A stretch of 40,748 nucleotides of DNA from NCBI GenBank assembly GCA_019113825.1, contig DXGR01000098.1:1-40748 (forward strand), read 5' to 3'. The translations under genes were made by a program, and so were the position numbers. How positions within the stretch are numbered: the first letter of the stretch is position 1; every line of letters begins with the position of its first letter. This stretch comes from Candidatus Stackebrandtia excrementipullorum (GTDB taxonomy: Bacteria; Actinomycetota; Actinomycetes; Mycobacteriales; Micromonosporaceae). The notes below the pieces were generated by a model. It searched no databases. It was not told the origin of the DNA and worked only from the letters and a program-made list of their open reading frames with translations. Shown in pieces: positions 16,877 to 37,436 of this stretch.

Positions 16877-17893
16877 TTATCCGGGTGGGTCCTGTTTGTA
16901 GTAGATGTTGGCCTGTCGTGTTCCGGGGCAACCTGACGCGAACCCCATCGCGAGTCGTGGTCGCCCATCGGCGAGATTGATCAGGCCGAGTCCTTCGGGC
17001 TCTCGGAAGTTCAGTGAGTAACCGGCGTTGGTGAGGTGGGCTTCGTGGTCGCTCTCGTCGTTGAAGTTGATGCGCCCGATTACGGTGTTTCCCCTGCCGC
17101 GTTCACCGGGTTGGTCGCACGGCTGGTCGTACGGGTTGCCCTGTAGTAGGTAGAGGTGCTGTCCGTAGTGTTGGTAGCCCTGCGGCGTGACGTCGGGTGT
17201 GTGGACGGGCCGGGTGCTGATGTCGGCCAGCCGTTGTGAGAAGTCGTGCTCGGCGAACGCGTCCAGGTCGTACAGCGAGACGCGCATGCCGTCCACGCCG
17301 TCTTTTGTGTAGCGCACGGCGATGGTGTTGTGGTCCATGTCGAGCGAGCACGACGCCAGGTGCATGCCGTCGATCGGTTCGTACAGTTCGACGTCGTCGC
17401 GGGTGATGGGGGTCGTTGACGCCGCCCACGGGAAGCGGCATACGACGCGGGCGCGACTGTTGTCGTCGCCGTAAGGTTGGGCGTCGGCCTCGGTCCACAT
17501 GATGACGCCGTCGGGGGTCGGTTGGACGCCGAAGGCGATGCCGTGCCCGAAGCCGTTGAGGTACATGCGACTGATGTAGTCGCCCTCGAGGGTCATGCGG
17601 TTGATGGCCAGGTGCCCGCGTCGTTTGCTGTCGGGTTGGTCGCTGCGTTGCATCACGTAGACCTCGCCGTTGACGTTGTCGAAGGCGAAACACTGCATGA
17701 TGGGTTTTTCGTGAAGTGGCTTTTTCCAGAACAGACGTGATGAGGCCACTGTGAGGTCGAAGCGCGGTGAGGTGGGCACGTCGGCACGTGCGGTACCGGC
17801 GATCGCGGTGGATCCGAGGCCGCCCGCGAGGATTACGCCGGTGCTCAACGCCAGCATGCGTCGTCTGCTGAGTGTGGACTGTTGGTGATGCAT
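16877..17893 (-). CDS. Tat-secreted beta-propeller-like protein (P68 RBP/TagC-like)
   Basis: 338 aa from ATG at 17893 after GAGGAGG. SRRRMLALSTGVILAGGLGSTAIAGTARA is a twin-arginine signal with an Ala-rich cleavage site, so it is exported folded. The mature part carries repeated strand units (MQCFAFDNVNGEVYVMQ, GHLAINRMTLEGDYISRMYL, GVQPTPDGVIMWTEAD, TIAVRYTKDGVDGMRVSLYDL, GLGLINLADGRPRLAMGFASG), the pattern of the propeller domain found in TagC-like and phage receptor-binding proteins and in secreted actinomycete homologues. It probably binds a polymer or surface glycan; no catalytic residue stands out. Domain assignment is from remembered similarity, moderate. Confidence 0.7.
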   Translation of the reverse strand: MHHQQSTLSRRRMLALSTGVILAGGLGSTAIAGTARADVPTSPRFDLTVASSRLFWKKPLHEKPIMQCFAFDNVNGEVYVMQRSDQPDSKRRGHLAINRMTLEGDYISRMYLNGFGHGIAFGVQPTPDGVIMWTEADAQPYGDDNSRARVVCRFPWAASTTPITRDDVELYEPIDGMHLASCSLDMDHNTIAVRYTKDGVDGMRVSLYDLDAFAEHDFSQRLADISTRPVHTPDVTPQGYQHYGQHLYLLQGNPYDQPCDQPGERGRGNTVIGRINFNDESDHEAHLTNAGYSLNFREPEGLGLINLADGRPRLAMGFASGCPGTRQANIYYKQDPPG

Positions 17894-17970
17894 GGTGTCC
17901 TCCTCGGAGTCGAGGGTGGCTCTCAATGTAGGCGACGGTGTGACAAATCAGCCATTGTGGAATCTTTGTC

Positions 17971-18006
17971 GTTCGTCGCCGATCCCCGTTGGTGTCGGCG
18001 ACGAAC
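17971..18006 (-). terminator. Strong hairpin after the LPXTG reading frame
   Basis: GTTCGTCGCCGA, 12-base loop, TCGGCGACGAAC: a perfect 12-bp stem. It begins 8 bases past the TGA at 18016-18014 that ends the LPTTG segment, not near the earlier TAA at 18145-18143, which argues that the transcription unit was built around the longer gene. Confidence 0.8.
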
Positions 18007-18013
18007 CCCCCTG

Positions 18014-18142
18014 TCAGTCGCGCGAGGCGGCGAGGCGCCAGGCGAACAGCAGCCCGACGACGAGCAGCGCGGCGCCCGTGGCCAGTAGCGGCGACAGCGA
18101 CCACCCGGTGGTCGGCAGCGTCGGCTGGTCGGGCGTCTCCTC
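18014..18142 (-). pseudogene. LPXTG cell-wall sorting signal stranded behind an in-frame TAA
   Basis: Directly after the TAA of the upstream gene, in the same frame, the reverse strand reads EETPDQPTLPTTGWS, then a hydrophobic helix (LSPLLATGAALLVVGLLFAW) and a short positive tail RLAASRD followed by TGA. This is a textbook sortase signal: LPTTG motif, helix, charged tail. A single change of TAA to GAA would join it to the secreted domain and give 193 aa in one frame. There is no start codon or ribosome site of its own. Confidence 0.85.
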
Positions 18143-18595
18143 TTAAGGCGGTGTCGAGACGGGCGTCTCGGGCGTCTTCGGGTCCTCCGGCTCCTCCGGT
18201 TCGTCCTGGACGATGATGTCCACCGTCGCCGTGGCGCTGGTGTCGTTGTGTTCGGATTCGGCGTTGACGATGCTGAAGGTAACCGTCTCCGGCGTCGTGT
18301 CCGTGACGACGGCCGAGCATTGGACCTGCTCTGTCTGGTGAGGCACGAGGGTCCCGACATCCTGGGCACAGTCGGGGAACTCCTCCGGAGCGACGATCGT
18401 GTCGTAGGTGATCTTGCGGTGGTGCTCGTTGGTGACGCTCAGTGTGATCGTCACCGTGTCCCCCGGTTCTGCGGCGATCGGTTCGGCCGCGGCGGTGAAT
18501 GTGGTCAACTCGTCGGCGTAGGCCGGCGTAGCGGCAAAAATTAGTCCTGCTGCGATGCCGGTGACGCTCGCAGTAAGCAGGAACCTTCGGGCCAT
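18143..18595 (-). CDS. Secreted CARDB/DUF11-like protein, truncated before its LPXTG anchor
   Basis: 150 aa from ATG at 18595. Signal peptide (ARRFLLTASVTGIAAGLIFAATPAYA), one immunoglobulin-like domain of the DUF11/CARDB sort (AAEPGDTVTITLSVTNEHHRKITYDTIVAPEEFPDCAQDVGTLVPHQTEQVQCSAVV) with a Cys pair, then a Pro/Glu-rich wall-spanning linker (DEPEEPEDPKTPETP) that stops at TAA. Because the sorting signal follows in frame, the intact form would be covalently wall-anchored; the form encoded here would be released to the medium unless the stop is read through. About 120 bp separate the full-length end from the next gene's start. Confidence 0.85.
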   Translation of the reverse strand: MARRFLLTASVTGIAAGLIFAATPAYADELTTFTAAAEPIAAEPGDTVTITLSVTNEHHRKITYDTIVAPEEFPDCAQDVGTLVPHQTEQVQCSAVVTDTTPETVTFSIVNAESEHNDTSATATVDIIVQDEPEEPEDPKTPETPVSTPP

Positions 18596-18752
18596 ATGGA
18601 TACTCCTGAAATGAGATCACCCGGTGCCGGCGAGTGACGAAACAATCGGCATGGTTGTATGCACGCAATTGCGGTGTGTGACCGTCAGGGGCTCGGTGTG
18701 GCGCAAAGTGGGCCGAAGCGGCGTCGGCTGTCATGACGTGGGGCGATGGTCC

Positions 18753-19514
18753 TCAGTCGTCCAGGAAGCGCGCAATCCCCACGGCCACGGCCTCGGCGAG
18801 GTCCTGACGGAAACCTGCATCCTTCATCAGCGCGGCGTCGTGATCGTTGCGCATGTTGCCGCACTCGATCATCACCTTCGGCACCGTCGTCAGATTGAGG
18901 CCGCCCATGTCGGCGCGAGGGTTCAGGCCGTCGTTACCGATGTAGTCGGCGGGCGCGATCACCTCGGTCATCGCCTCGGCGAGTTCGACGGCCAGATTGT
19001 GGGAGGTATCCACGACCGTGTCGTTATAGCCGTCCAATTCGACTGGTTGCATGATGTGGAAACCCGAGCCGTCCGGCGGACCGCCGTCGGCGTGGAGGGA
19101 GACCGAGACGTCGGCATCGGCGTCGTTCGCGACGGCGGTGCGCTCGGTAATGCAAGGCCCCACGCCCGTGTCGTTCTGTCGGGTCAACATCACCGTGGCG
19201 CCCTCCGCTTGGAGCAGTGCCGCGAGCCTTGTGGCGACGTCGAAGTTGAACTCGTGTTCGAAATAACCGTCATCGGTGTTGGTTCCCGTGGTGTCGCAGG
19301 CTTTTTCGCCGTTGCCGACGTCCACGGGCGCGTTGATCTCATCGGGTGCGTCGATGTTGCCGCCGTTGTGTCCGGGGTCGATGACGACGACCCGGTCGGC
19401 CAACGGGAGAGGCGGTGACGACGACGCGGTGTCGGCCTTCGCCGGAGGGTCGACGGTTTGGCAGGCTCCCAACATGAGAGCGGCCGTGAGAAGGAGCGTG
19501 GCGCTGTATCTCAA
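18753..19514 (-). CDS. N-acetylmuramoyl-L-alanine amidase (amidase_3) lipoprotein
   Basis: Likely start is TTG at 19514 with GAAAGG nine bases upstream, giving 253 aa and a short lipoprotein signal (LRYSATLLLTAALMLGAC, lipobox LGAC); longer in-frame starts give an implausible basic extension. The domain has the amidase_3 zinc site: VVIDPGHNGG (His), YFEHEFNFDVA (Glu), VSLHADGGP (His) and catalytic Glu in VMIECGNMRN. It cleaves the amide bond between MurNAc and the stem peptide. The lipid anchor keeps it at the membrane face, and the neighbours are other envelope genes. An insertion with two Cys (KACDTTG, GPCITE) may form a disulfide. Confidence 0.92.
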   Translation of the reverse strand: MRYSATLLLTAALMLGACQTVDPPAKADTASSSPPLPLADRVVVIDPGHNGGNIDAPDEINAPVDVGNGEKACDTTGTNTDDGYFEHEFNFDVATRLAALLQAEGATVMLTRQNDTGVGPCITERTAVANDADADVSVSLHADGGPPDGSGFHIMQPVELDGYNDTVVDTSHNLAVELAEAMTEVIAPADYIGNDGLNPRADMGGLNLTTVPKVMIECGNMRNDHDAALMKDAGFRQDLAEAVAVGIARFLDD

Positions 19515-19900
19515 CGAAACAAGCCTTTCGAGGCTGTTGACGGGCCTGTTCGACGTTAGCGGAAAGGGCTGTCGCCGTGGTGATCGGGAGCGGACGGTCT
19601 CGACAATGCCGCGGTGCGTGTCGACGCATAAATCCTCTGTCTCCATGAAAGAGCGTGGTGGCTCGATTATGGAAACCGATAGTCACCGGTGTTGAAGCTG
19701 CAAAGAGCGCTTTCCGGCGCCGAAAGACTCCCAGATCGTTTGCCCTGGTTGTGGGTGACTTGTATGTCACGTCGGTATGTCTGTGAGTGCGGACGCCTGC
19801 GGTGTAACGCCAAGGGAACTGTGTGGAAGGTCCGAAAACTTCCGGTTAAACCGGAATTGTCGCCGACCGCCGACCGCCACAAAGAAAAAGGAGAACCACA
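19515..19900. other. Divergent upstream region, 386 bp without a gene
   Basis: It separates the amidase and M23-SapA genes. Short frames here are unconvincing. It holds a near-palindrome at 19710-19726 (CTTTCCGGCGCCGAAAG) and the 17-base palindrome at 19840-19856, plus a relatively AT-rich final 40 bases leading to the AAGGAG site. I looked for c-di-AMP (ydaO) and c-di-GMP riboswitch cores and did not see them. Confidence 0.5.
19840..19856. promoter_or_regulatory. Perfect 17-base palindrome, candidate operator
   Basis: TTCCGGTT-A-AACCGGAA: eight-base arms around one central base, too tight for an RNA hairpin and typical of a dimeric repressor site. It lies 45 bp upstream of the M23-SapA start. 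Confidence 0.5.
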
Positions 19901-28018: not shown

Positions 28019-28446
28019 GAAATTGGCCTTTCGCATACGTGCCGGGGGTATAGAGGCCGGATCGCCGCAGCGCAGGGTCACAAAGGGGCATTGACCGGGC
28101 TGGGCGGACCTGGCCTGTGGGCTTGGTTCACCGGGATGAACCACCTACAGTATTCATAGATGTATATCGATGCGCAATGCTTCCGCGGTCGATTTAGGCT
28201 CCCGTTAAGGAAATATCGTCCGATGGATCTTTAATCCGGCATGTCCATGATGATCGTTGTATGGGGCGAATCGTCTGGTTGGCGAGGCCGACCGGCACCT
28301 GGCGGTGTCACCCCATGGGAGAATTGCACTCAAACCGGTAAATGCGCCTATGATGCTGCCAGGCCCCGCAACTACCCGTGACCACAACGAGTTCGACCGA
28401 CCGTCGTCGGTGGAGCTCGATACCGGCTTTGATCGCGAGGATGAAG
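28019..28446. other. Divergent intergenic region between protease and SARP genes
   Basis: About 430 bp with no supported gene. Bases 28140-28260 are AT-richer than their surroundings and probably hold promoters in both directions; the palindrome at 28155-28172 sits in this patch. Confidence 0.5.
28155..28172. promoter_or_regulatory. Imperfect 18-bp palindrome, candidate operator
   Basis: CATAGATGT-ATATCGATG: arms agree at 7 of 9 positions. It lies 137 bp upstream of the protease start in the AT-rich patch of the divergent region. Confidence 0.35.
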
Positions 28447-31400
28447 GTGCCACAACAACCCATACGCGCGTTCGGGCCACTTCTGCGTCACCACCGCCTC
28501 CGCCGCGGCATGACGCAGGGCGAGCTCGCCTCCTCCTGCGGCTTGAGCGTGGCCGCGATTCGCGACCTCGAGCAGCAACGTACCCGGCTGCCGAGGCAAC
28601 GCTCGGTGCGTGCACTGGCCGACGCGTTGAAGCTGGAGACCGAGAAACGCGACGAATTCGAGAAGGCCACGCGCCTGCATCCGCGGCCGTCGCCCGACGG
28701 TGACGGCGACCAACCGGTGACCGTGGGGATTCTCGGCCCGCTGCTGGTCCGTCGCGGATGCCGTGAGTCCGAGGTGGCGTCGGCGAGGCAGCGGCAGCTG
28801 CTGGCCCGCCTCGCCTTGAGCCCCAACGTGACCGTGGGCCGCGACGAACTGATCGACCTGCTCTGGGAGGGGGACGTACCGGCTTCGGTGTTCAACGTGC
28901 TTCAAACCCACGTGGCCAGGCTGCGTCGGGTCCTTCGCGTGAACCCCGTCGTCGACGAGTGCCTGACACTGTCGGCTTCCCCGGGCGGCTATCGGCTCGG
29001 AGCGTCGGCCGCGACACTGGATACCCTGCAGTTCACCGAGCTGGTCTCTCGGGCACGCGAGACCGATCCCGAGAGCGCCGCCGACCTGCTGAAGCAGGCG
29101 TTCGCACTGTGGCGTGGCGACGCGCTGGCCGACGTCGCCGGGTTTCGGACGCACCCGCTCATCACCGGACTCCAGGAACAACGGATCGCCGCGGCTCTCG
29201 CCTTGGCCGACGTCGTCGGGACCGTCCCCGACGACGACCTGGTGGCCGTGCTGCGTCTCCAAGCGGCTCACCATCCTCTGCACGAACCGTTGCAGGCGCG
29301 TTTCATGCTCGCGTTGGCGGCGGCGGGACGACGCGGAGAGGCTCTTCACCACTATCAGGATCTGCGTCGCCGTCTCGCGGAGACCCTCGGCATCGACCCG
29401 GGTGACGAACTGGTCGCCGCCCACGTCGCGATCCTCCGGCGCCTCCCCTCGCCGGCCGCCGCCGTCGCAGCGCCCGAACCGGATCGCCCCGCCCAGTTGC
29501 CGCTCCCCATGGGGCACCTCGTCGGTAGACAACGACACGTCGACGAACTCGACGACCTGCTCACGACCACGGCCTCGGCGACGCCCGTTGTCATCCTCGA
29601 AGGTGGCGCCGGTGTGGGAAAGACGTCTTTGGCGGTGCACTGGGCCCATCGTGTCGCCGAACGGTTCTCCGACGGCCAGGTGTACATCGACTTCAAGTCC
29701 GGAGGGGAGCCGCTCTCGGCCATCGCCGCGCTGCGGGGTCTTCTGCCGAGCTTCGGTGTGCCGTCTCGGCGTATTCCCACCGACGACGATGCCCTGGTCG
29801 GCCTGTACCGCACGCTCGTCCACGGTCGACGGCTGCTGATCGTGTTGGACAACGTCCGAGACGCCGACCAGGTTCGTCCATTGGTGCCCGGGACGGGCGG
29901 GTGCATGGTGTTGGTGACCAGCCGCGCGCGGTTGACGGGCCTGGTCACCACTCACGCCGCCGTGCCCATGCCCGTGAACCTGTTGACCACCGAGGACTCG
30001 ACACGTCTGTTGGAACATCGCCTGGGAACCACACGGACGCAACGGGAACCGGCGGCTGTGGCGCGGCTGGTGAAGCTGTGCGACGGGCTTCCGCTGGCGT
30101 TGGCCATCGTGTCGGCCAGGGCCGCGGCCGAATCCGACATGTCTTTGGAGTGGCTGGCCGAGCGCCTGGGCGCGGGACGGGGTGACCTGTCTGCATTCAG
30201 CATCGCCGACGCGGCCACCGACATACGAGCCGTCTTCTCGTGGTCGTACGAGCAGTTGAGCGCACCGGCCGCGCGGATGTTCAGGCATCTCTCCCTGCAT
30301 CCGCCGGTCGACCTGTCCGTCGAGGCCGCCGCGTCCATCGCGGGAATCTCACCGGGGCAGGCACTGTCACTGTTGACGGAACTGTCCGGCACGCACCTGG
30401 TGAACCTACACACCGGCGGCCGATGCGGGCTCCAAGACCTGTTGCGCTCCTACGCGAACGAACGCTGTTCGGCGACCGACTGGCGCTCCCGGCGCCGCGA
30501 AGCGTTGAAGCGCATGCTCGACCACTACCTGCACACCGCGCATCCGGCGGCGCGACTGCTCGACCCGAACCGGACCGCGATCAGCCTGCCCGAACGGGCG
30601 CCCCACGTCCATCCGGTGGAGTTGCGGGACGCCGGGCAGGCCCGTGCCTGGTTCACCGCCGAGCACCCGGCGTTGATGAGCGTCATCGACCACGCGGCGA
30701 CGCACGACTTCGACGACCACGCGTGGCGTCTGGCGTGGGCGTTGACGGACTTCCTTCAGAGGCAGGGCTTCTGGCACGACTGGGTGCGCGCTCAGGAGCT
30801 GGCCCTCGGCGCGGTCGAACGCGTGGGCGACCGGCTGGACATCGCGCACACCACCCGCGGTTTGGGACGTGCGTACGCTCAACTGGGCGATGTCGAGGCC
30901 GCGCGTCGGTACCTCACAGAGGCCTTCGAGCAGTACGCCCACCTGGGGGAACGGCTGAGCCAGGCCCGTACCCTGCGCAACCTCGCCTACGTCCTGGGGC
31001 GGCACGGCCGGTGCGAGGAGGCACTGACACACGCCGAGAAGGCCCTGACCCTGTATCGGGCCGATGACGATCAGGCCGAGTACGCCAACACGCTCAACGT
31101 GATCGGTTGGCACCTCGCATTGAAAGGCGATCACACCGGGGCGTTGCCGCTGTGCGAACGAGCGCTGTCTTTGTTGCAGGACACCGAGGACCGACGCGGT
31201 ATGGGCGTCACCTGGGACAGTCTCGGGTACATCGGACGTGGTCAGTCCGACCTGAACCGGTCCTATGAGTGTTACCAGGCGGCCGTGGCGATTTTCGTCG
31301 ACATAGGCGACCGCCATAACGAGGCCGAGTCGCGCATGGGGCTCGCCCACACGTGTCGTGCTCTGGGACGCGACGACGAGGCCGACACCGCGGAGCGCGT

Positions 31401-31470
31401 CGCCGACCGGATCCTTCGAGAGCTGGGGGACGGGTCGGTTCCGCCCTACCGCGAGCCGGCGGTGCTTTAA
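28447..31470 (+). CDS. AfsR/SARP-like regulator: XRE-HTH, BTAD, NB-ARC and TPR
   Basis: About 1007 aa. The start is uncertain: GTG at 28447 has GAGG six bases upstream, while ATG at 28441 abuts it and the frame is open to GTG 28378. Order: an XRE-type helix-turn-helix (LLRHHRLRRGMTQGELASSCGLSVAAIRDLEQQRTRL), an OmpR-like winged helix (VTVGILGPLLV...RQRQLLARLALSPNVTVGRDELIDLLW), a BTAD helical domain (about 130-330), an NB-ARC ATPase with Walker A GGAGVGKTS and Walker B RLLIVLDNV, and C-terminal TPR repeats (ARRYLTEAFEQYAHLGE, YANTLNVIGWHLALKGDHTGALPLCERAL). Such STAND-type activators switch on secondary metabolism or secreted enzymes. No biosynthetic cluster is in the window; the flanking secreted protease and peptidoglycan hydrolase are candidate targets. 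Confidence 0.93.
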   Translation: MPQQPIRAFGPLLRHHRLRRGMTQGELASSCGLSVAAIRDLEQQRTRLPRQRSVRALADALKLETEKRDEFEKATRLHPRPSPDGDGDQPVTVGILGPLLVRRGCRESEVASARQRQLLARLALSPNVTVGRDELIDLLWEGDVPASVFNVLQTHVARLRRVLRVNPVVDECLTLSASPGGYRLGASAATLDTLQFTELVSRARETDPESAADLLKQAFALWRGDALADVAGFRTHPLITGLQEQRIAAALALADVVGTVPDDDLVAVLRLQAAHHPLHEPLQARFMLALAAAGRRGEALHHYQDLRRRLAETLGIDPGDELVAAHVAILRRLPSPAAAVAAPEPDRPAQLPLPMGHLVGRQRHVDELDDLLTTTASATPVVILEGGAGVGKTSLAVHWAHRVAERFSDGQVYIDFKSGGEPLSAIAALRGLLPSFGVPSRRIPTDDDALVGLYRTLVHGRRLLIVLDNVRDADQVRPLVPGTGGCMVLVTSRARLTGLVTTHAAVPMPVNLLTTEDSTRLLEHRLGTTRTQREPAAVARLVKLCDGLPLALAIVSARAAAESDMSLEWLAERLGAGRGDLSAFSIADAATDIRAVFSWSYEQLSAPAARMFRHLSLHPPVDLSVEAAASIAGISPGQALSLLTELSGTHLVNLHTGGRCGLQDLLRSYANERCSATDWRSRRREALKRMLDHYLHTAHPAARLLDPNRTAISLPERAPHVHPVELRDAGQARAWFTAEHPALMSVIDHAATHDFDDHAWRLAWALTDFLQRQGFWHDWVRAQELALGAVERVGDRLDIAHTTRGLGRAYAQLGDVEAARRYLTEAFEQYAHLGERLSQARTLRNLAYVLGRHGRCEEALTHAEKALTLYRADDDQAEYANTLNVIGWHLALKGDHTGALPLCERALSLLQDTEDRRGMGVTWDSLGYIGRGQSDLNRSYECYQAAVAIFVDIGDRHNEAESRMGLAHTCRALGRDDEADTAERVADRILRELGDGSVPPYREPAVL

Positions 31471-33026: not shown

Positions 33027-36000
33027 TCAGGACATGCCCCTGATGTGTCGTCCCAGCCGGTACAGATCCCGTCTTCGCTTCTCGAAGGTGGCCCCCACCG
33101 CCAACAGCAGCGCACCGGCCACGCCCAGCGGTAGCCACGTCGGCAGCAGCATCCACAGCAACGCGAGCTCACGCAGCGCCGAGACCATTACGACCGCGCC
33201 GCTGATCACGACGACGGCTTGAAGCCGTCGCCATGCTCCGAACACGAGAATCGCCACCGCACATGCTCCCAACAGGAGCCTTCTCAGCGGAGTATCGCCG
33301 GTGATCAACAGGACGGCCACAGTGGGCAGGTATCCGATCAGGAGCCCGGGCGCGAAGGTGAACCAGCTTCCCGCCGTTTCACGGCGCCGGTATTCGCTGA
33401 AACCTCCCCACAGCACCACGAGCGCCAATGGCACGACGTAGCCTTCGACGAGGCCCACATCCGTCTGCCACAACAAGATCCAGTAGGCGAACAGCGTCAG
33501 GACACCGGCGATCACCGGATACACCGTTGCGGGCAGGATCCGGTCGTGTCGGCCCCATGCGAACAACGCGATCAGAGCGGCCTGAACGAGGAGCACAAAG
33601 GCGGGCGCGACGCCGCCGCCGAAGGCGGCGATCAGCGCGGCGGTGAACGGAATCCACGCGGTGGCTTCGGCTGTTCGGCCGTGTCGACCGAGCACTTTCG
33701 CTGCACCCAACAGCGCTGTGGCGACCACAAGGGGACCGAACGCCGCATGGTGGACGGCCAGGCCCGCGTGTAGGCCGACCGCCCCTGCGGCGACCGTGCC
33801 GACCGTGGCGGCCGCCTGCCACGCCACCACACGAACGGCCGTCCCGGTCGTGGATACCGCGACGGCGACGGCGCCGACGAACGCCAGGCCGAAGCCGGCG
33901 ATGGTCGTCACCGGTGTGGCCAGGCATGCGGCGAGACCCGCGCCCCCTGTGATCGCCGTGGTCACGCCGGCCCAGGCACGTTGACCCGCGCTCCAACCGT
34001 CGAGCCCTGTCACGACGGACCAGGCGCCGCCGGCGAGGACGGCGAAGACCGGTAGCAGTGGCCAGGGAACGTTCGTCGCGACGAGAACTCCCGGTACCAG
34101 CAGGATCGCCGCCGACACAGCGGTCACCACGGCCCACCGGAGCCGTCCGAGGCCGAGCACCACGAGTACGACCGCCGTGGCGGCCAAGGCTGCGCCGGTC
34201 ACCTGCAGCAGCGTCGTCGACGCCGTCGACGCCTCCCACCCCCACGGCGACAGTCCATCCATGGTGGAGGTCGGGGTGTGTTGCCACGCGTGCCACGGCC
34301 ACGCCCACGGCAGCACATACAGTGCCCGAAGCAGCGGCACCGAGACCGCAACGCACAAGAGAGCCGGAACGATCGCGACCGCGGCCCGCACCACCACGCT
34401 TCGCCGACGGGGCAGCATCAACAGGGCCGCTCCGACGGATACGAGCGCGGCCACACCCGTATAGAGCGAGGACGCACCGAGGCTCACCGCCATGACGGTG
34501 ACGACCGTGGCGACGGGGCCTATCGTCGCCGACACCGCACCCAGCTCGGGTGCCCGCCGAAGGCGCAGCATCCCGGCACACAGCAGCGCCACCACCATGG
34601 CCGTCACCGTCGCCGGTTGTGCCGACACCACGTCACCGCCGTACGCGGCGAGGGTCGTCACCGGCAACAAGACGATCGTCGAGCCGGCAAGGACGTTCCC
34701 GGTCGCCTGGTCCCGTTTGTGAGCGAGCACCGCCACCAGCGCGACCCCCACGGTGAGCATCAGGGCGGATACCCACACCGACGAGGGGTCGGCCCGATGG
34801 GTGGCCGCGAGCGAATAGAGCGCGGTCGGCGCCGCGACGATCAGCGGGGCACGACTTGTGCCGAAACACGCGACTGCGGCCAGTCCCACCGCAGCCAGGG
34901 CCGCGGTCCATCCGTAACTCGACTCCGGGAGCTGCCACGCCTGCGGTGCTGCGACGACGGCGGCCACCAACAGGTAGGCGGCGGGTTCCACCCGGTATCG
35001 GCGGGCCAGGCCGCTGGACGCGGCGATCGCGGCGACGACGGCCAACAGTATCGGCGCCTGCCACGTGACCCAGTCGGTTCGCACCGAGGTCAATCGTTCG
35101 ACGACGACCGACAATGTCAACAGCGCGAGGGCGGCACCGGTGACGCCGGTGACGATGAGCCCCGCCCATCGCAGGGCGTCACCGTAGCGGGTCGACAACC
35201 GTGATGTCAGGAAAGCGGTCGCTCCGGCGGCGACGTAGCAGGATGCGACCCAATCGGGGAACACGACGGCACCGACACCCGCCGCAGTGACGAGTACGGC
35301 GACCGTCGCCGTGATGTGTGCGGCGAGACGCCACTGGTTTTCGATCACGAGGATCGTGACGAGCAATGCCGTCGCCAACAGCGTCACCACCATGGGTATC
35401 GCCTGGCTCCGACCGTTGAAAACGAACCCGGCGAGGAGCAACACGATGCTCACCGTGACCAGCGCGGTAGCCGGGATCATGCCGATCGCCACCGCGGCCT
35501 CGTCCCGATCACGTGGGGGACGGGCAAGGAACCACCATGCCGAGGCGACGATCAGGGCCGCGACCGCCAGAGCGTGGAGGGGTTCGGCACCCGACAGCCA
35601 CAGCCCGACGGGTACCGCCGCGCAGCCGTTCGTGACCGCGAGGCTGTACGCGAACCCACGGGCTCGCCCGGTCGTCGGCACCGCGGCGAGCGTGGCCGCG
35701 ACGGTCAATCCCGCGGTGACGAGGAAAGTGGTCCCCGGGCCTGCCAGAGACAACAGCACCGCGTAACCGGCGAGGGTGAAAGCCCCACCGAGCAGCCAAC
35801 CCCGCCATGGGCGGCGGACGGTGGCGGCGAGGAAACCGTAGACCCCGGCGGCCACCGTCAACGCGGGCGCCGCCACCGGCCATGCCACGCCGATCACCGT
35901 CGGTGAGGCGATGAGCGCGGTGGTCGCGGCGCCGACGGCCACGACAGCTCGGTACGGGTGGCGGGCCCACCAAGCGGTTGCGGCGATCACGGTGAGAATC

Positions 36001-37235
36001 ACCGGCAACTGCCAGGCGTGGTCTATGACCGGTGCGGCCGTGGACAAAACGCCCAGGCTGTTACCGACCGAGATCACGGCGACGTGGACGGTGACGAAAA
36101 GCGGCGGAATGCCGAAGAGACCCACGGCCGTCCAGCCCGTCAGCAGTGGACCGAACCGCCACGGCGACGGCAACAACCGGGCGAGACCGATGACGAGGGC
36201 CGACGCCGTGACTCCGACGAGGATCCAATGCGGTGGCCACAGGTGAAGCGAGAGATGTGTTGCCGTTGCCACGAACACCAGTGCCGCACCGGCCGCGGTC
36301 ACCGACGCCTCGCCGAGCCGACCGGGGGTAGCGTCGTTACGACGCGCGATCCACCACGCGGTCGTCGTTATCACGATGAACAGGACACACAAGCGTGCAA
36401 AGCCGCCCGACCACGGCGTATACGCCAGGGCGGCTACCCCGGCGACGATCGTGAACGCGGTGACGGTGTAACCGGCGGTCTTCATGCCGGTCGCCAGTCG
36501 ATAGGCGATCGCCACCGTCACGGCCGCCGTCATCAGAAGCGACAGGTCCGCTACCGTCCACAGAGCCGATACCACCGCGTCACACACCAACGCGAGCATC
36601 GCCAGGACGGTGACGGTTTCGGCGGTGGCGACGAGTCGATACCGCGTCAACAGCGGTGGGAGCCCCAGGAGCGTGAGGGTTCCCGCGGTCAGGACTGCGA
36701 TGCGGCCGACCGGGCCGTGGTTGGTCCACGCATAGACCGCGAACGCGATGATCGCAACAGCCGACACGATGCCCCCCAACGTCAACAGAATCCGTTGGGC
36801 TGACAGGCGGGAGAGTTCCGGATGCCGACCGGGGACCGGTGCCGTCGGCGCGTGCGGGAGGGGATGTGGGTCGGGGGCGACCGGTGGCGCCATGGCCGAC
36901 GCTCCGGCAGGCTTCGCCGGTGGAGGCGACGGCATACCGGTAGGCACCGCCGACGCGGGCGGCGACGGCAGGGTCCGCGCGGATGCGGTTCTGGCTTGTC
37001 GGGCCCGCACACCCAGGTCGTGCAGGACCCGGCTGCGTCGTTGCTGCAGTACGGCGAGATTCTCGGTCAGCTCCTCGACGCGCCGCCGGGCGTGACGGAG
37101 CGCGTCGTTGTGATGCGCGGTCGCCGTGTCGAGCTCGGCCAGTTCCGCCAGAAGCGGTTCGTGGCCGCGTCCACAGTTACGGCAGCCGGCCACCGGGGCG
37201 GGCTGATCACAGACGGGACACCGAAATAGTTGCAC
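33027..37235 (-). CDS. Giant polytopic membrane protein with N-terminal zinc ribbon (SCO7613-like)
   Basis: About 1402 aa from GTG at 37235; the ribosome site is weak and the frame opens further upstream, so the start is approximate. Residues 5-21 form a zinc ribbon (CPVCDQPAPVAGCRNCGRG), followed by a helical coiled coil (LLAELAELDTATAHHNDALRHARRRVEELTENLAVLQQRRSRV), a Pro/Ala-rich linker, and then more than thirty hydrophobic helices to the C-terminus (RKRRDLYRLGRHIRGMS tail). Zinc ribbon plus very many helices matches proteins annotated as SCO7613 C-terminal domain-containing membrane proteins. Function is unknown. GC-rich Ala/Val/Thr composition is typical for such proteins and not a sign of transfer. 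Confidence 0.85.
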   Translation of the reverse strand: MQLFRCPVCDQPAPVAGCRNCGRGHEPLLAELAELDTATAHHNDALRHARRRVEELTENLAVLQQRRSRVLHDLGVRARQARTASARTLPSPPASAVPTGMPSPPPAKPAGASAMAPPVAPDPHPLPHAPTAPVPGRHPELSRLSAQRILLTLGGIVSAVAIIAFAVYAWTNHGPVGRIAVLTAGTLTLLGLPPLLTRYRLVATAETVTVLAMLALVCDAVVSALWTVADLSLLMTAAVTVAIAYRLATGMKTAGYTVTAFTIVAGVAALAYTPWSGGFARLCVLFIVITTTAWWIARRNDATPGRLGEASVTAAGAALVFVATATHLSLHLWPPHWILVGVTASALVIGLARLLPSPWRFGPLLTGWTAVGLFGIPPLFVTVHVAVISVGNSLGVLSTAAPVIDHAWQLPVILTVIAATAWWARHPYRAVVAVGAATTALIASPTVIGVAWPVAAPALTVAAGVYGFLAATVRRPWRGWLLGGAFTLAGYAVLLSLAGPGTTFLVTAGLTVAATLAAVPTTGRARGFAYSLAVTNGCAAVPVGLWLSGAEPLHALAVAALIVASAWWFLARPPRDRDEAAVAIGMIPATALVTVSIVLLLAGFVFNGRSQAIPMVVTLLATALLVTILVIENQWRLAAHITATVAVLVTAAGVGAVVFPDWVASCYVAAGATAFLTSRLSTRYGDALRWAGLIVTGVTGAALALLTLSVVVERLTSVRTDWVTWQAPILLAVVAAIAASSGLARRYRVEPAAYLLVAAVVAAPQAWQLPESSYGWTAALAAVGLAAVACFGTSRAPLIVAAPTALYSLAATHRADPSSVWVSALMLTVGVALVAVLAHKRDQATGNVLAGSTIVLLPVTTLAAYGGDVVSAQPATVTAMVVALLCAGMLRLRRAPELGAVSATIGPVATVVTVMAVSLGASSLYTGVAALVSVGAALLMLPRRRSVVVRAAVAIVPALLCVAVSVPLLRALYVLPWAWPWHAWQHTPTSTMDGLSPWGWEASTASTTLLQVTGAALAATAVVLVVLGLGRLRWAVVTAVSAAILLVPGVLVATNVPWPLLPVFAVLAGGAWSVVTGLDGWSAGQRAWAGVTTAITGGAGLAACLATPVTTIAGFGLAFVGAVAVAVSTTGTAVRVVAWQAAATVGTVAAGAVGLHAGLAVHHAAFGPLVVATALLGAAKVLGRHGRTAEATAWIPFTAALIAAFGGGVAPAFVLLVQAALIALFAWGRHDRILPATVYPVIAGVLTLFAYWILLWQTDVGLVEGYVVPLALVVLWGGFSEYRRRETAGSWFTFAPGLLIGYLPTVAVLLITGDTPLRRLLLGACAVAILVFGAWRRLQAVVVISGAVVMVSALRELALLWMLLPTWLPLGVAGALLLAVGATFEKRRRDLYRLGRHIRGMS

Positions 37236-37436
37236 CTGTGTACTCTGCTCCAGCTGTGCAAACGCTCCTACGTTTCGGCATTGTGACACGTGAGGCCGTT
37301 GTCTCCGGAACGACTGAGGTGGACGACGGTACCGGGCGAAGCTACCAACGAGTATTGTCGGTGCCGAAGCGTCAGGTTTACAAAGCCTTCGCCCGACGAC
37401 CGTTGTCATTCACCAACGCTGGAAAAGGTGACCGTT

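Follow-up and report, generated by a model that had tools for sequence, protein, structure and literature searches.

Why should a gene for a small, presumably secreted protein be followed, directly past its stop codon and in the same frame, by a cell wall sorting signal? The question is raised by a locus on the minus strand of the window, by which we mean the whole stretch of 40,748 nucleotides that was analysed here, taken from the genome of Candidatus Stackebrandtia excrementipullorum (contig DXGR01000098.1). Translation of the window gives an open reading frame of 150 codons, which starts with an ATG at 18595 and ends with a TAA at 18145-18143, and the frame continues unchanged past this TAA for another 42 open codons, from 18142 to 18017, up to a TGA at 18016-18014. 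The sequence-only reading had placed the TAA in frame between a secreted domain and an LPXTG sorting signal, and this arrangement was confirmed. The features of the locus and of the two flanking genes are as follows, in the order in which the minus strand is read.

18753 to 19646, minus strand: P0002, the upstream gene, N-acetylmuramoyl-L-alanine amidase (profile match to PF01520, 115.8 bits)
18603 to 18607, minus strand: AGGAG in the upstream sequence, 5' of the ATG, which we take to be a ribosome-binding-like site
18146 to 18595, minus strand: the 150 codons that precede the stop, with a predicted secretion signal, an Ig-like beta-sandwich domain and a linker rich in Pro, Glu and Thr (translation, homology and structure model)
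18515 to 18595, minus strand: predicted signal peptide, residues 1-27, ending in AYA before DE (translation read by eye)
18143 to 18145, minus strand: in-frame TAA, with Pro-Pro before it and G after it (sequence and translation)
18017 to 18142, minus strand: open frame past the TAA, 42 codons, with no in-frame ATG, GTG or TTG (translation)
18104 to 18118, minus strand: LPTTG motif (translation)
18038 to 18091, minus strand: hydrophobic segment, residues 18-35 of the tail (translation)
18014 to 18016, minus strand: distal stop codon, TGA (translation)
17971 to 18006, no strand assigned: perfect inverted repeat of 12 bp with a loop of 12 nt, a possible U-less terminator (inverted-repeat and folding analysis)
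16877 to 17893, minus strand: P0001, the downstream gene, beta-propeller protein (profile match to PF21311, 63.5 bits, cut-off 23.7)

The 42 codons of the tail translate into EETPDQPT-LPTTG-WSLSPLLATGAALLVVGLLFAW-RLAASRD. The motif, the hydrophobic segment and the reading frame thus agree with the earlier description of a sorting signal past the stop, whereas the charged end is a weak one: past the hydrophobic part it has two Arg and one Asp, as compared to four and five Arg in the two homologues described below, L010 and L011. Taken alone, the tail falls below the profile cut-offs, with 18.6 bits to PF00746 (cut-off 20) and 10.9 bits to TIGR01167 (cut-off 15.9); the tails of the two relatives score 20.8 and 24.1 bits to PF00746 when taken alone, and the whole proteins score 16.4 (under the cut-off) and 20.4 bits. 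The possibility that the motif had arisen by chance was rejected on the basis of the homology to these two tails. We also observed that the TAA sits in a CTTAAG palindrome, one of three in the window, and that an open reading frame on the plus strand (17892-18146) thus ends on an overlapping TAA.

The part before the stop is predicted to be exported. The assignment of residues 1-27 to a signal peptide leans on a cleavage rule that we presume to hold here, and in both relatives the predicted signal peptide likewise ends in Ala-x-Ala followed by Asp-Glu. The domain behind it gave weak, sub-threshold profile matches, to DUF7507 (17 bits, cut-off 27) and to a DUF11-type repeat (14.7 bits, cut-off 24). 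A structure model, for which the input was an alignment of three sequences, had a mean pLDDT of 75.8 and seven strands, with 66 of the 150 residues at 90 or above and with blocks over residues 31-110 that were mostly at 90-95. By its look the modelled domain is an Ig-like beta-sandwich. A fold search of the model against the PDB recovered weak matches, seven of them at E 0.001 or better, the best at 3.1e-4 with a TM of 0.37.

Which of the two states is the older one, the interrupted or the continuous frame? We searched five genomes of the genus, namely our own (G000, a 4.17-Mb draft in 149 contigs) and four others (G001 to G004). The 150-residue part matched three of the five, which are the genome itself, G001 (45% identity) and G002 (42%), in which the matches lie in open frames of 225 and 236 amino acids, and no homologue was found in G003 and G004 at E 0.001. 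In the homologues L010 (200 amino acids) and L011 (232 amino acids), LPTTG, a hydrophobic segment and a basic end are fused in frame to the domain with no stop in between, and the tails of these two proteins are also the two best matches to the tail outside its own genome (55% and 54% identity). Because two homologues from the genus carry the tail fused in frame without a stop, the anchored form is probably ancestral and the TAA derived, a parsimony argument drawn from two homologous sequences. The earlier suggestion of a change from GAA to TAA was more specific than the alignment permits; the linker around the TAA does not align with the linkers of the relatives, and the ancestral codon can therefore not be read from them.

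Across the family, the 150-residue part matched 6 of 354 genomes, three of which belong to the genus, and the other three matches were weak (E 1e-4 to 1e-3, 26-33% identity). A contig scan with the same part, from which records of the own genome may be excluded, found no relative. Within the genus, 34 matches to the 42-residue tail were obtained at E 1 or better, and only the one in the window lies in an open frame of less than 100 amino acids; another two, both weak (E 0.55 and 0.88), have a TGA in them. In 200 genomes of the family, the tail matches listed, which extend to E of about 3e-5 and do not include the tail in the window, are located in open frames of at least 174 amino acids, a listing that says little about weak tails.

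We consider it likely that a real nonsense change in the linker has freed a formerly wall-anchored surface protein. The assembly contains the TAA, the remnant past it is intact, with every element of a sorting signal in frame, and the two fused homologues in the genus are free of stops. In the scenario that we propose, the ancestral gene would have encoded a sortase-anchored surface protein, in the linker of which a nonsense change arose. Translation would begin at 18595 and end at the TAA, and the product of 150 residues would be exported by means of its signal peptide and released without attachment to the wall, for want of a sorting signal. The 42 codons for the LPTTG motif, the membrane segment and the basic end would then be an untranslated remnant within the transcript. 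We infer that the organism does carry the TAA, that it makes the protein and releases it, and that the change has become fixed in the species.

A few other explanations for the interrupted frame were considered and set aside. An altered genetic code, in which TAA is not a stop, was rejected on the grounds that TAA also ends other open reading frames in the window; it closes 6 of 21 heuristically picked frames, this gene included. A restart of translation on the tail was dismissed given that an in-frame ATG, GTG or TTG is absent and that the product would be without a secretion signal. A frameshift in place of readthrough was not called for, the tail being already in the frame of the body.

The TAA could also be an error in the consensus or the assembly, or an allele that happened to be in the majority in a mixed population, such that the gene of the living organism would still encode an anchored protein. 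The source is a draft of 149 contigs and the only genome of the species analysed here, both relatives are uninterrupted, and the tail shows no drop in third-position GC, all of which speak for this reading. However, an error would leave unexplained why the residues of the tail have changed faster in the lineage of the window, although the sites are few, and by our own estimate true broken genes in bacteria are commoner than consensus errors that create a stop. We regard an error or a minority allele as unlikely.

The rates of change within the tail also bear on the age of a nonsense change. Of 29 residues compared in the tail, 10 are specific to the lineage of the window and three each to those of L010 and L011, while among 100 residues of the domain the corresponding numbers are 14, 15 and 25 (Fisher p=0.014 for tail versus domain). 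The species are roughly equidistant, as judged from the identities of their class E sortases (82% between the window's genome and G001, 84% between it and G002, and 81% between G001 and G002). The comparison, made on 29 residues in three sequences, suggests that the tail is under relaxed constraint in the lineage of the window. The window-specific changes are distributed as 7, 5 and 8 over the codon positions of the tail, a distribution that differs significantly neither from that in the relatives (p=0.20) nor from that in the domain (p=1.0).

It had been argued from the sequence that the tail shows no decay and that the nonsense change is very recent. The first of these statements is exaggerated. 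In the six frames of the whole window, 537 of 1431 stops are followed by at least 42 open codons, and since open frames are cheap in GC-rich DNA, the open frame past the TAA is little evidence of recency; the window-specific residues in the tail likewise speak against an absence of decay. An LPxTG motif is found after a single one of these 537 stops, which is the one in front of the tail. When neutral events were simulated at rates that we assumed, the tail was still intact with a probability of 0.776 after one event, 0.273 after five, 0.075 after ten and 0.019 after fifteen, and because of these survival probabilities the intactness of the tail excludes only a long decay. The GC content at third positions, 41 of 42 codons in the tail as compared to 123 of 150 in the body (p=0.011), is unlike the outcome of a long neutral drift. 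Thus, the two stop-free fused homologues argue for a nonsense change, and the third-position GC argues against an older decay, but the simulation and the ten unique residues do not establish that the change is very recent.

We also considered the hypothesis that the stop is read through, in a programmed or tolerated manner, so that a released and a wall-anchored form would be produced from one gene. As in genes for which readthrough is known, an open extension with a functional-looking element follows the stop in frame; neither the frame nor the sorting elements have been lost, and the third-position GC of the tail is high. Furthermore, the stop is preceded by Pro-Pro, a context in which termination in E. 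coli is reportedly slowed (PMC7246954). In that report, a C-terminal proline that slows termination leads to ssrA tagging, not to readthrough, with large variability between species (PMC7246954), and the Pro-Pro, which is the sole feature here that could be turned towards recoding, predicts tagging and not extension.

Readthrough genes are also unlike the gene in the window in several respects. UAA is reported to be the least leaky of the stop codons (PMC5289835), and in a conserved recoding site both the stop and the extension would be retained, whereas no stop is present in L010 or L011. The RNA past the stop is not unusually folded; no stimulatory structure was detected 3' of the stop (z 1.13, with 177 of 200 shuffles as good or better, pseudoknots aside), and the fold around the stop did not stand out from shuffled sequences (z 0.22). 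None of the 40 tRNA matches in the draft genome has an anticodon that reads UAA, near-cognate misreading aside. Nor is the tail more constrained than the tails of the relatives, and among the literature matches listed, no title concerned the readthrough of an LPXTG protein. The earlier proposal of one gene with two forms is hence left without positive support, and we consider programmed or tolerated readthrough extremely unlikely. Leaky termination at the Pro-Pro-UAA-G context of this chromosomal gene, which would yield chiefly the released form along with a small share of the wall-anchored one, appears every bit as improbable. Readthrough, if it were to be shown, would bear on how far bacteria set the location of their proteins by recoding, although the evidence leans against it.

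Could the anchor instead have been lost as a consequence of changes in the sortases? One sortase match was identified in each of G000 and G003, and two in each of G001, G002 and G004; the three genomes with two matches are also larger than the other two. The sortase in G000 belongs to class E according to NCBIfam (197.7 bits, cut-off 160), while the second sortases in G001 and G002 belong to class F, above the curated cut-off. Class E sortases in Streptomyces are reported to prefer LAXTG (PMC5148588). One hypothesis is that the class F enzyme served this protein and that the tail became useless once the enzyme was gone, and both genomes in which the fused tail is intact do have a second sortase. 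This correlation rests on two lineages, and in Actinoplanes missouriensis the deletion of all four class F genes is reported to have had no phenotype, with a class E enzyme serving the anchored protein (PMC13251363). Furthermore, at least five other LPXTG tails in G000 (L001, L026, L030, L056 and L073) are uninterrupted, and LPXTG thus seems to be still usable in a genome with only the class E enzyme. Because these tails have been retained, the loss of the class F sortase is not in itself enough to account for this one lost anchor, and we find this explanation very unlikely.

The downstream end of the locus is marked by a hairpin, the arms of which (17971-17982 and 17995-18006) are 100% complementary. 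Its predicted stability is -26.6 kcal/mol (z -5.73), and none of 200 shuffles was as stable. The hairpin was previously described as a perfect 12-bp terminator placed 8 bases after the distal stop. The perfect pairing over 12 bp holds, but the hairpin begins 7 bases past the TGA, neither strand has a T-run behind it and it was absent from the output of a terminator scan, so that a role as terminator is our inference.

The genes on both sides encode proteins of the extracellular type. Homologues of P0001 are present in four of the five genus genomes, and one is also located 3' of the anchored homologue in L011. The N-terminus of P0001 resembles what we take to be a Tat signal. PF21311, the family matched by this secreted protein, is a phage receptor-binding propeller family. 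A contig scan with P0001 led to one locus, L015, in Candidatus Stackebrandtia faecavium (10,846 bases), with which L039 from G003 (3,993 bases) shares 131 of 360 sampled 60-mers. Elsewhere in the window, a protein of 1460 amino acids with the look of multiple membrane spans (33027-37409, minus strand) had no Pfam match at E 0.001, and a SARP-type regulator (28378-31470, plus strand) matched HTH, BTAD, NB-ARC and TPR profiles. An open reading frame of 642 amino acids that lies entirely on the strand opposite to the regulator (28372-30300) is probably a shadow frame.

Returning to the release of an anchored protein by a nonsense change, the gene resembles the LPXTG proteins of the Actinomycetota with PF00746 or TIGR01167 tails in that a signal peptide, here a predicted one, an extracellular domain, a linker, LPTTG, a hydrophobic segment and a basic end follow each other in one frame. 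It differs from them by the stop between the domain and the tail, and by a tail that is under the Pfam and NCBIfam cut-offs when taken alone; L010 and L011 have domain and sorting signal in one stop-free frame, which the gene in the window does not. The closest parallel is found in Listeria, where nonsense changes 5' of the sorting signal in InlA, also an LPXTG protein, are reported to convert the anchored protein into a truncated, secreted form (PMC6558679, PMC5131979). As in that system, homologues with an intact anchor exist, here in two of the other four genomes from the genus. Unlike in Listeria, where the effect rests on experiments and many strains, our case is read from one draft genome, and the protein and the organism are unrelated and only a short tail is lost.

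If the stop is real, the locus would represent a clean case in which a single change causes a surface protein to be secreted and in which relatives without the stop are at hand within the genus for comparison, and it would extend a known kind of event beyond the pathogens.
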